This document shows positions 20,371-51,033 of a stretch of DNA of 64,000 nucleotides, piece by piece. The translations under genes and the position numbers were made by a program. Position 1 is the stretch's first letter. Each line of letters starts with the position of its first letter. The stretch is from an uncultured Kiritimatiellota bacterium (GTDB taxonomy: Bacteria; Verrucomicrobiota; Kiritimatiellia; RFP12; DVOR01): assembly GCA_944389565.1 (NCBI GenBank), contig CALXMV010000006.1:1-64000 (forward strand). The letters run 5' to 3'. Under the pieces are notes generated by a model that searched no databases, was not told where the DNA came from, and saw only the letters and a program-made list of their open reading frames with translations.

Positions 20371-21467
20371 GTGAATCCAATCATCCGCACGTTGGGCAGT
20401 CCGTTCGCCGCGGCCTTCCGGACAATCCCCCGATTGATCCGCCAACCTTCGTTGTGGCCGGACCGCCCGCGCAAAAGTCTGCCCCATCGTTACCTTGAGA
20501 ACCTGTGGATTCGCTTGGTCGACCACGGGGTGTGTCTGGAGTACAACGCCTTTGGCCTTGACCTGAAAGGCAGTCCGCATTGGCGCACGTTCGTGACAAA
20601 CGCGTGGCGTGCCCACCACATGGCGCAGTGGCGGACGTGGAGCGGCATCGACTACACGGCGGTCTTGCAGGACAAGGCACTCTTCGCGGATTTTTTCGGC
20701 GGGCATGGCATACCGGTCGTCCCGAACGTGGCGCTTTATAATCCGCTATTGGGGGGGGGGCATACCCTGATACCCTAATCGAACGACTTGTTCGCCTCCC
20801 CGCTTTCGTCATGAAACCGGCCGACGGGATGTGCGGGGCCGGTGTGCGGAAAATCTCCGTGCGCGACGGTGCGTTCTGGGAGCATGGCAAACCCTTCGAT
20901 TTGTCGGCGTTCCTGAAGACCATCCGAACGCGGTGGGTTTTTCAGCCGATTGTCGTCAACCACCCCACCCTGCAGGCGCTGAACCCAAGCTCCCTGAACA
21001 CCATCCGCATGATGACCTGTTGGAACCGCCGCACCCATCAGGCGGAGCTCTGGGGGGACAGCGCACTCCGGATAGGGCGCAAAGGCGAGTTGGTGGACAA
21101 CCTGCACGCAGGGGGCATCGTCGTCGGCGTGAGCGCCTCCGGACGGCTCAAACCCGATGGCATCGCCTTCTGGGACAATTTCAGCGCCGCACGATATTCT
21201 CATCACCCTGACTCCGGCATCCGCTTTGGCGAGGTGGAGATCCCCTTCTACAAAGAGGCGACCGAAGTCGTCTTGGCGGCGCAACGCCTCCTCCCGGAAA
21301 TCCCCTCCATCGGGTGGGACGTCGTCATCACGGAGACAGGCCCCATCCTTTTGGAGGGCAACCATGACTGGGACACGAGCCTCCAGCAAATCGCCAACCG
21401 CCAAGGCATGATGGCGCGCTATCACGAAATCTACGACCCGCTCGTCACGCCAAATGCCACGATGTGA
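20371..21467 (+). CDS. Sugar-transfer-associated ATP-grasp protein, copy 1, frame broken at G10 tract (phase-OFF)
   Basis: The N-terminal part (20371-20778, 135 aa, GTG start) and the C-terminal part (frame of 20811-21467) are two halves of one ATP-grasp protein, shifted at a run of ten G (20751-20760). With 11 or 8 G the frame is open for 365 or 364 aa, reading PLLGGG then AYPDTLIERLVRLPAF then MKPADGMCGAG. ATPgrasp_ST family signs: MKPADGMCGAGVRKI (nucleotide-binding), NTIRMMTCWNRR, DNLHAGGIVVGV, and GWDVVITETGPILLEGN (metal-binding). The family sits in exopolysaccharide clusters and probably forms an amide or similar link on glycan precursors. ATG 20811 could restart the C-terminal half but lacks a good ribosome binding site. 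Phase variation is inference; an assembly error in the homopolymer is the alternative. Confidence 0.8.
20751..20760 (+). repeat. G10 homopolymer inside ATP-grasp copy 1
   Basis: Ten consecutive G within TTG-GGG-GGG-GGG codons. The downstream frame is restored if the run is 8 or 11. Candidate slipped-strand mispairing site. Confidence 0.8.
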
Positions 21468-21492
21468 CAATGTTTTGGGAAAGACACATCGC

Positions 21493-22568
21493 ATGAAATC
21501 GCTCATCCGTTTCTTTGGGAGCCCACTCGCCGCGATTTTCCGCAGCGTCCCCCAACTGATCGCGCAACCCTCTTTGTGGCCGGACCGCCCGCGCAAACCC
21601 TGGTTGCGACGTTATCTCGAGAACCTCCGTATCCGCTTCGCCGACCACGGGATTTGCCAAGAATACAACGCCTTCGGCCTGGATCTGAAAGAAAGCCCGC
21701 CTTGGCAAGACTTTGTCACGAATATGTGGCGCGAGCATCACATCCACTCGCCGGCATTGCGCAAGTGGAATGGCATCGACTACACGGCGCTTCTGGACGA
21801 CAAAGCGCTCTTCGCGCTCTTTTTCTCCGCGCAGGGGATCCCCGTCGTCCCGGTCGTGGCGACCTACGATCCGCTACTAGGGGGGGGGTAACCTTAAGCC
21901 AATCCCTGCTCCGCCTTCCGGCTTTCTTCATGAAACCTGCCGGCGGCATATGCGGGCAAGGCGGGCGCAAAATCGCCGTGCGCGACGGCACGCTCCAGGA
22001 GCATGGCAAACCGTTTGATCTGGCGGCCTTCCTGCGCGACGCCAAAGAGAGATGGGTCTTCCAGCACGTCATCGTCAACCATCCGGACCTGACGGCGCTG
22101 AACCCCGACACCTTGAACACCGTCCGCATGATGACGTGCTGGAACCGCCGTACCCGCCAAGCGGAGCTCTGGGGCGACAGCGCGCTCCGGGTGGGGCGCA
22201 AGGGCGAGGCGGTCGACAATTTCCACGCTGGCGGGATCGCGATCGGCATAGATGCCTCCGGTCGTCTGAAACGTGAGGGGATTTCCTTCCGTGCGAATCT
22301 CTGCCAGGCGCTTTACACCCGCCATCCGGACAGCGGCCTTGTCTTCGAGGGGCGGCAGATCCCCTTCTACCATGAGGCCGTCGAGATGGTTCTGTCCGCG
22401 CAACGCGCTCTTCCGCAAATCCTCTCCGTCGGATGGGATGTCGCGATCACGCCGAACGGCCCCGTCCTCATGGAGGGCAATTACGACTGGGATGTCTGCC
22501 TGCCGGAGATCGTCAACCACACGCCGATGATGGCGCGTTGCCGGGAGATTTACGAGGGGTTGCTGTGA
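21493..22568 (+). CDS. Sugar-transfer-associated ATP-grasp protein, copy 2, frame broken at G9 tract (phase-OFF)
   Basis: A tandem paralogue of the preceding gene, clearly similar over the full length (PSLWPDRPRK, YNAFGLDLK, NTVRMMTCWNRR, VDNFHAGGIAIGI, GWDVAITPNGPVLMEGN). It starts at ATG 21493 after GGGAAAGACA. The frame stops at 21891 (132 aa) right after a run of nine G; the rest continues one frame over to 22568. With 10 or 7 G the frame is open (358 aa for ten), reading PLLGGG then VTLSQSLLRLPAFF then MKPAGGICGQG. The break is at exactly the same codon position as in copy 1. It is 25 bp downstream of copy 1 and followed by a strong terminator, so the pair forms one transcript. Confidence 0.8.
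21880..21888 (+). repeat. G9 homopolymer inside ATP-grasp copy 2
   Basis: Nine consecutive G after CTA; a TAA follows immediately in the upstream frame. Ten or seven G would open the gene. Confidence 0.8.
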
Positions 22569-26616: not shown

Positions 26617-27918
26617 ATGTCCACCCTCGTCATCCGCGGCGGCAAGCCGCTCTCCGGCGAACACGTCGTGCCGGGGAACAAGAACGCCGCCCTCCCCATG
26701 CTCGCCGCGGCCCTTCTGGCCGACGGCCCCGTGACCCTCCGCAACCTCCCGGACATCCTGGACGTCCGCGTCATGGCCGAGGGGCTGCGCACGCTCGGCG
26801 CGACGGTCACGGGCGACCTTGCCGCGACCCACGCGCTCACCATCGACCCGCGCGGCCTGAAGGCCGACCCGGTCCTCCCGGCGGAGATTTGCACGCGCAT
26901 CCGCACCTCGTTCCTCTTCGTCGCGCCGCTCCTGGCGCGGCGGGGGCGCATCCGCCTGCGGGGCGCGCCGGGCGGCGACAGCATCGGGCGCCGCCGGCTG
27001 GACACGCACGTCAACGGCCTCACCGCCCTCGGCGCGAGAATCACCCTGCGCAAGGGCGGCTCGGCCACCGCCACCGCGCCCGACGGCCTGCGCGGCGCGG
27101 ACTTCATGCTCGACGAGGCCTCCGTGATGGCCACCGAGAACCTCGTGATGGCCGCCGCCGCCGCGCGGGGCGAGACCGTGCTCTACAACACCGCCTGCGA
27201 GCCGCACGTCCAGGACCTCTGCCGGATGCTCGTGGCGATGGGCGCGGAGATTGCCGGCATCGGCACCAACCGGCTCGTCATCCGGGGCGGGCGCCCCCTG
27301 CGCGGCGGGGACTTCCGCGTGGGCGGCGACGCGATCGAGGCCGCCAGCTACGTCGTCGCGGCGGCCGTCACGGGCGGGGCCCTCACCCTGCGCGGCATCG
27401 CCCCCGGCGACATGGCCGTCCTCGCGCCCGCCTTCCGCAAGTTCGGCGTGCGCTGGGCCGTCGAGGGCGACACCCTCCGCCTCCCCGCCCGCCAACGCCT
27501 CCGCACCGCCTACGACCTCGGCGCCGCCATCCCCAAGATCGAGGACGGCCCCTGGCCCATGCTCCCCTCCGACCTCCTCAGCGTCCTCATCGTGCTCGCC
27601 ACCCAGACGCGCGGCACCGAGCTCTTTTTCGAGAAGATGTTCGAGAGCCGCCTCTACTTCGTCGACCACCTCATCGGCATGGGGGCCAAAATCGTCCAGT
27701 GCGACCCTCACCGCGCCGTCGTCACCGGCCCCACCACGCTCCAGGGCGGCACCGTCTCCAGCCCCGACATCCGCGCCGGCATGGCCCTCATCGTCGCCGC
27801 CCTCTGCGCCCGCGGCGAGACGCGCATCCACAACGCCGAATCCATCGACCGCGGCTACGAGGCCATCGACGCGAACCTTCGCGCCCTCGGCGCCGACATC
27901 CGCCGCCTCACCCCCTGA
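26617..27918 (+). CDS. murA: UDP-GlcNAc 1-carboxyvinyltransferase (Asp-type MurA)
   Basis: 433 aa EPSP-synthase-fold enzyme, normal length. GNKNAALPMLAAALL at the N-terminus holds the Lys/Asn catalytic pair. The loop that normally carries the reactive Cys (GGCxIG) reads APGGDSIGRRRLD, with Asp at residue 121. It adds enolpyruvate to UDP-GlcNAc, the first step in peptidoglycan synthesis. Cys-to-Asp MurA is known to be fosfomycin-insensitive (for example in mycobacteria and chlamydiae). Follows the UDG-like gene by 6 bp. Confidence 0.94.
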   Translation: MSTLVIRGGKPLSGEHVVPGNKNAALPMLAAALLADGPVTLRNLPDILDVRVMAEGLRTLGATVTGDLAATHALTIDPRGLKADPVLPAEICTRIRTSFLFVAPLLARRGRIRLRGAPGGDSIGRRRLDTHVNGLTALGARITLRKGGSATATAPDGLRGADFMLDEASVMATENLVMAAAAARGETVLYNTACEPHVQDLCRMLVAMGAEIAGIGTNRLVIRGGRPLRGGDFRVGGDAIEAASYVVAAAVTGGALTLRGIAPGDMAVLAPAFRKFGVRWAVEGDTLRLPARQRLRTAYDLGAAIPKIEDGPWPMLPSDLLSVLIVLATQTRGTELFFEKMFESRLYFVDHLIGMGAKIVQCDPHRAVVTGPTTLQGGTVSSPDIRAGMALIVAALCARGETRIHNAESIDRGYEAIDANLRALGADIRRLTP

Positions 27919-50318: not shown

Positions 50319-50347
50319 TTGCCCCCCCCCCTGTATTTTGATATTTT
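50319..50347 (+). promoter_or_regulatory. PEP-CTERM gene promoter with C10 tract in the spacer
   Basis: TTGCCC (50319-50324), 17-bp spacer, TATTTT (50342-50347). A run of ten C (50322-50331) spans the end of the -35 and most of the spacer, so a length change would alter promoter geometry. The other ~120 bp up to the GH2 start show no gene. Confidence 0.5.
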
Positions 50348-50397: not shown

Positions 50398-51033
50398 ATG
50401 ACCAAACCCCTGCTTTCCCTCGCCGCCGCCCTCCTCGCGGGCCTCGCCGGCGCCGTCACCGTCGACTGGACGCCCGCCTCCGGCGCGCAAACCAACCTCC
50501 TCGGTGGTTTCGACCCCGACGTCACCATCACCCTCTCCGTCACCTACACCATCACCGAATCCCCCAACACAACCGGGCCGAACGGCAACCTCTTCGCCAT
50601 CTCCTGGGGCGCGGGGAACCCGGCCGATGCCACAGCGGACTCGTTGATCGTCCGCAACATCACTGCGCACGACGGCCCCAACGCCGTAATCAACGCCACC
50701 TCAAGCCGCGGCTCCGAGCCTGATGCCTATTATCGCAACGTTATCGCGGGTGCCTTCGACACGACGAACGGCGGCCAGCACACCCTCACCTTCACGCTCG
50801 ACCTCGGGGACTCCCCCGCGATTTCCGTGACGTTGGACGGTGGCGACGCCCAGACCCTGACCCTGCCCAACAACTCCCTTGACCCCGAGTCCCTCAAACT
50901 CTGGACCTACAATCAGTCCTGGGGCTCGGTCAGCTCTGTCTCCGTGGACTACTGGGCGGTGCCGGAGCCGACGGCCCTGGCCCTGCTGGCCCTCGGCGTC
51001 GCCGGCCTGGCCCTCCGCCGCAAGACCGCCTGA
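50398..51033 (+). CDS. PEP-CTERM sorting-domain protein
   Basis: 211 aa. A signal peptide (MTKPLLSLAAALLAGLAGA) is followed by a Thr/Asn/Ser-rich, strand-rich exported domain (TITLSVTYTITESPNTTGP and HTLTFTLDLGD). The C-terminus VPEPTALALLALGVAGLALR plus a short basic tail is a classical PEP-CTERM signal, processed by exosortase in bacteria that make exopolysaccharide. Exosortase is not in the window. GATAGGAG precedes ATG 50398. Likely a surface or matrix protein of unknown role; homology of the main domain is not recognised. Confidence 0.88.
   Translation: MTKPLLSLAAALLAGLAGAVTVDWTPASGAQTNLLGGFDPDVTITLSVTYTITESPNTTGPNGNLFAISWGAGNPADATADSLIVRNITAHDGPNAVINATSSRGSEPDAYYRNVIAGAFDTTNGGQHTLTFTLDLGDSPAISVTLDGGDAQTLTLPNNSLDPESLKLWTYNQSWGSVSSVSVDYWAVPEPTALALLALGVAGLALRRKTA

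Follow-up and report, generated by a model that had tools for sequence, protein, structure and literature searches.

Aligned poly-G tracts in two adjacent ATP-grasp paralogues of an uncultured Kiritimatiellota bacterium suggest phase variation by replication slippage

The paralogue pair and its G tracts

The stretch of DNA analysed here (the window, 64,000 nucleotides) lies on contig C6 of a 2.26 Mb draft genome in 72 contigs (G000) from an uncultured Kiritimatiellota bacterium. Its forward strand carries two adjacent paralogues of the ATPgrasp_ST family (PF14397) that are each broken at a G run as assembled. Gene A (20371..21467) starts from GTG at 20371, and gene B (21493..22568) starts 25 nt past the stop of A from ATG at 21493, i.e., 39 nt later than in the mechanical list of open reading frames. 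The tract of A is a G10 (20751..20760) whose first G completes a TTG leucine codon as its third base, and that of B is a G9 (21880..21888) at the aligned codons, where the preceding leucine codon is CTA. Both putative slippage sites therefore amount to nine Gs after Pro-Leu-Leu, so that the two genes share a register and lack one base for the open frame. In this assembled state, A meets a TAA stop at 20776..20778, 5 codons past the run, and B meets one directly after the tract at 21889..21891 (0 codons). The third register ends after 3 codons in A and 43 in B, so that the three registers of each tract yield one full and two short products. The initial annotation had placed both runs after the same PLL codons and stated that one more G or two fewer would restore a full protein. 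Coordinates and register proved correct on checking, and the open-frame products are indeed 364 or 365 aa for A (at G8 or G11) and 357 or 358 aa for B (at G7 or G10).

The read-through products of A and B share 66% identity, and they are the only two members of the genome above the curated cut-off for ATPgrasp_ST (31.4 bits; scores of 150.7 and 143 bits). Since these matches fall on the pieces downstream of the run (E=6.4e-44 for A, 1.4e-41 for B) and no Pfam family was matched by either upstream piece, truncation would strip the catalytic domain. No homologue of either protein was found in the PDB by sequence. The run itself sits in a loop of variable length, in which the paralogues differ by three residues right after the tract and two homologues from a relative (G034) differ again; an extra glycine should be tolerated at this place. 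An internal start at a methionine shared by both genes, (F/V)MKPA, was considered and set aside because no ribosome-binding site is visible upstream of it.

The pair stands alone between genes for a GDSL hydrolase and glycyl-tRNA synthetase (glyS), with MutY as a further neighbour, outside any glycan cluster. Homologues in other genomes have a different setting: those of G034 and G111 sit in polysaccharide loci with GT2, Wzy_C and epimerase genes, that of G006 lies beside PGA_cap and hexapeptide transferase genes, and that of G007 beside GT1 and GT8 genes. The role in surface-glycan assembly that the initial annotation had proposed is accordingly favoured by the family and by these polysaccharide loci of four relatives, whereas the location of A and B among GDSL hydrolase, MutY and GlyRS genes lends it no support. 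To judge by family rather than position, a surface-glycan role is likely.

No close counterpart of A or B was found among 16 other genomes of the genus, and the tract can therefore not be traced through orthologues. The glyS locus of 14 relatives contained no homologue of A, B or the GDSL hydrolase within 1.5 kb on either side, and two patterns taken from the flanks of the pair had no matches in viral contigs. Close homologues in named genomes were limited to RUG14492 and RUG10619, two rumen metagenome-assembled genomes (MAGs) of the same order, both without G tracts. Neither the ATPgrasp_ST gene of G007 nor the homologues outside the genus carry such a tract. The ATPgrasp_ST gene of G006, which lies next to capsule genes (L014 1748-1756; G006:C13, about 5701), has a G9 that is in frame and lies at another place than the tracts of A and B; from this different position, ATPgrasp_ST genes seem to have acquired a run more than once within the genus.

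Constraint on both halves and scarcity of long runs

Two adjacent genes that are both out of frame as assembled could simply be decaying pseudogenes in which the G run was an early lesion. Their absence from the rest of the genus (16 genomes) would agree with such a fate, as would their GC3 of 0.75-0.78 compared to 0.87-0.91 in the neighbouring genes; by the same two features, A and B may be recent arrivals. If the downstream half of a gene has gone untranslated since early on, its dN is expected to approach dS and further lesions to accumulate. We found neither in A and B. Upstream of the run, 125 codons give a dS of 1.0 and a dN of 0.244 between the paralogues (dN/dS about 0.24), and the 225 codons downstream give a dS of 0.95 and a dN of 0.256 (dN/dS about 0.27) without any other stop or frameshift. 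Residues conserved with distant homologues have been retained as well, and the two genes are hit at the identical codon site. A and B are therefore not decayed, and purifying selection has acted equally on both halves of both genes, which leaves the pseudogene explanation with very little probability.

The runs also have to be seen against a genome that avoids them in genes. In 333 kb of predicted genes (from a gene model for a 500 kb training set, built from a few known genes of the window), G/C runs of at least nine were seen twice compared to 14.2 expected from synonymous shuffling, an about sevenfold deficit, and runs of eight once compared to 29.9 expected. In line with this avoidance, Gly-Gly-Gly occurs 84 times in predicted genes and is encoded as GGG GGG GGG only once. 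Despite this, both paralogues hold the run at aligned codons across a dS of about 1. Throughout the genome, genic and intergenic DNA taken together, there are 54 runs of at least nine (length nine in 27 cases and ten in 20, dropping sharply to 3, 2, 1 and 1 beyond that) and about 46 of exactly eight, the latter number being derived from 195 eight-mer matches. Poly-G/C tracts of Campylobacter have a comparable length distribution with 53% at length 9 and 26% at length 10 (PMC6321876).

Runs elsewhere in the genome and genus

Type IIG restriction-modification enzymes, type III mod methylases and proteins with signal peptides are classic classes of phase-variable genes. Further out-of-frame coding runs of this genome fall into a type IIG gene, a type III mod gene and genes for exported proteins with signal peptides, and the shift required to open the frame is +1 in some of them and -1 in others. 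Eight other genes, including panC and an rluA-like gene (names assigned from sequence motifs), contain runs of 9-12 that are in frame; this split of runs by gene class was made post hoc and on small numbers.

In each of three species of the genus, the type IIG gene breaks at a homopolymer in the same place, which is a G9 in G000 (L055, C23, about 14014), a G10 in G005 (L156, C4) and a C10 in G007 (L157, C70). All three genes (63% identity for the orthologues in G005 and G007) are out of frame with registers that are not all alike. Differences in tract length became directly visible at the type III mod/res region, where G000 (L085/L198, C25, about 26787-27319) and G005 (L199, C3, about 248084) are 98.2% identical over 2149 bp. 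Three of the four gap bases in this alignment fall at two G runs and the remaining one at the margin of the alignment. The tract inside mod is a G10 in G000 and a G8 in G005, that between mod and res is a G10 and a G7, respectively, and neither mod allele is in frame. A coding poly-G tract is thus polymorphic in length in near-identical DNA at mod, between species rather than within one population.

The reading frames of L048, L054 and L049 break at a G9 or G10 run, which in L048 and L054 directly follows the predicted signal peptide, so that slippage would turn the mature protein on or off. Another locus, L028 (G000:C3:62286-62296), has an apparently in-frame G10 in a gene resembling one downstream of the ATPgrasp_ST and GT8 genes of G007, and possibly represents another switch in its on state. 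At L026 (G000:C1, about 48316), two closely similar family 2 glycosyltransferase genes lie next to each other, the first of which carries a G9 in its C-terminal tail.

These other runs bear on two alternatives that would leave the DNA of A and B invariant. The first is a sequencing or assembly error, i.e., the true runs would have one in-frame length and both genes would be expressed constitutively. Homopolymers are error-prone, the draft is fragmented into 72 contigs, and the runs of A and B deviate in the same direction; yet the eight genes with in-frame runs of 9-12 come from the same assembly and argue against a general homopolymer error. The out-of-frame runs moreover cluster in phase-variable classes and need changes both ways, and a slippage-prone tract would remain even if the lengths were wrong. 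We consider such an error hardly probable.

The second alternative, programmed -1 ribosomal frameshifting or transcriptional slippage, would yield the full protein from unchanged DNA. It would fit the identical shift needed by A and B and the slippery form G_GGG_GGG that is present within G runs. On the other side, the RNA just downstream is not more structured than shuffled sequences (z -0.56 and -0.97), and the DNA tract itself differs in length between the mod alleles. The opposite shift would be needed at other out-of-frame runs of the genome, which argues against one programmed frameshift for all of them. We regard this explanation as very improbable, too.

Most intergenic runs fall between hexamers resembling -35 and -10 elements, typically in the arrangement TTGACnnnn-G9/10-TGGTATnnT. 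The pattern TTGACN{2,6}G7N{0,6}TGGTATNNT matched 14 times in the genome itself compared to 0 matches for a reversed-pattern control. Several other genomes of the genus had 1-4 matches each, and the remaining members of the order yielded few (162 genomes scanned; controls all 0). With a stricter scan, we found 19 promoter-like sites in the genome with spacings of mostly 16-17, and 13 of these 19 lie upstream of a PEP-CTERM gene. For the 31 PEP-CTERM genes together, 0.19 runs are expected within 250 bp upstream. The proteins encoded downstream of these sites combine a signal peptide with a C-terminal VPEPTALALLALGxAGLALRRR, and all three that were tested passed the cut-off of TIGR02595. The window contains one such promoter-like site on its forward strand (50319..50347), composed of TTGCCC, a spacer of 17 into which the C10 at 50322-50331 extends, and TATTTT, and followed on the same strand by a gene for a PEP-CTERM exported protein (50398..51033; TIGR02595 22.1 bits, cut-off 16). 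Runs in the spacers of promoter-like sites are also present at L030, L032, L040, L043, L045, L047, L085, L086, L089, L095 and L100. Among them, L030 (G000:C5:11071-11102) has the longest run, a G14 within a putative TTGACA/TATCTT promoter that would give a 20-base spacer and possibly corresponds to an off state. As judged from sequence, the about 20 putative promoter sites probably form a genome-wide set of phase-variable promoters whose abundance is specific to the genus.

Proposed switching and comparison with known systems

Taken together, A and B very probably form a pair of contingency genes with translational phase variation by replication slippage, an explanation that is better supported than assembly error, decay or programmed frameshifting, each of them less likely. 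The initial annotation had likewise judged a maintained slippage site likelier than two decayed genes or two errors, and this judgement has gained ground from the selection on both halves, the many putative switches in the genome and genus and the G10 and G8 alleles of mod. The polymerase would slip on the G9 or G10 during replication and lengthen or shorten the run, each time by at least one base. Every third length would then encode the complete ATP-grasp ligase (about 360 aa), and the other two registers would give a truncated protein without the ATP-grasp domain. Because each gene has its own run, A and B could switch independently, and the two separate runs could yield four expression states; that A and B are out of frame by the same amount agrees with independent switching without proving it. 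The products may modify a surface polysaccharide, possibly by ligating an amino acid or a similar group to a sugar. We infer that the runs of A and B themselves vary in the population. The comparison covered one genome per species, and a metagenome assembly, being a consensus, may mask a mixture of lengths.

On a broader scale, we think it probable, though with less confidence than for the pair itself, that this genus with relatives among rumen MAGs runs a genome-wide poly-G/C phasome. It would comprise about 20 spacer-length promoter switches at PEP-CTERM genes, each for a different, exosortase-sorted surface protein, together with switches inside coding regions that act on exported proteins, on the ATP-grasp pair and on methyltransferases of types IIG and III. 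If true, this would generate a combinatorial repertoire at the surface and in the epigenome. Poly-G phase variation is mostly known from host-adapted pathogens with small and often AT-rich genomes, and here it would operate in uncultured bacteria of high GC content that have relatives among rumen MAGs. Genes such as A and B would be labelled as pseudogenes by automatic annotation, and the predicted switching can be checked directly in existing metagenome reads without culture.

In a library of open-access papers, we found no work linking phase variation with Kiritimatiellae and no report of paired ATP-grasp enzymes or PEP-CTERM promoters as targets of poly-G switching. Nor did we find a description there of poly-G promoter spacers combined with PEP-CTERM genes or of as many such promoters. 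The mechanism as such is already known from Neisseria, Campylobacter and Bifidobacterium; what appears to be new is the pair of genes affected, the lineage in which they occur and the extent of the putative promoter switching at PEP-CTERM genes.

The closest parallel for the coding runs is the poly-G/C phasome of Campylobacter with its frame-breaking intragenic poly-G tracts of 9-10 and the same length peak, which targets glycan-modifying enzymes and type IIG restriction-modification enzymes much like the targets proposed here (PMC6321876). Unlike in Campylobacter, the lineage is high-GC and uncultured, the target is ATPgrasp_ST and many runs lie in promoters, whereas 82% of the tracts in the C. 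jejuni/C. coli set are within open reading frames (PMC6321876). Intragenic G-tract slippage is also shared with the pili of Bifidobacterium breve, a gut commensal in which the annotated tract length differs from the main length in the population (PMC9187656). There, however, the targets are sortase-dependent pili and slippage was measured (PMC9187656), and here they are ATP-grasp enzymes and slippage is predicted from sequence.

For the promoter runs, each element of the proposed switch has a precedent. A homopolymer between the -35 and -10 elements whose length sets their spacing is known from porA and fetA of Neisseria (PMC5320596), and a gonococcal strain has three transcriptionally phase-variable genes compared to the about 20 promoter-like sites, mostly before PEP-CTERM genes, that we recognize by sequence (PMC5320596). 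Switchable expression of PEP-CTERM surface proteins is in turn known from Akkermansia, in which invertons adjoin PEP-CTERM genes and switch by DNA inversion instead of poly-G promoter spacing (PMC11892184). The promoters described here would be the slippage counterpart of these Akkermansia PEP-CTERM invertons.
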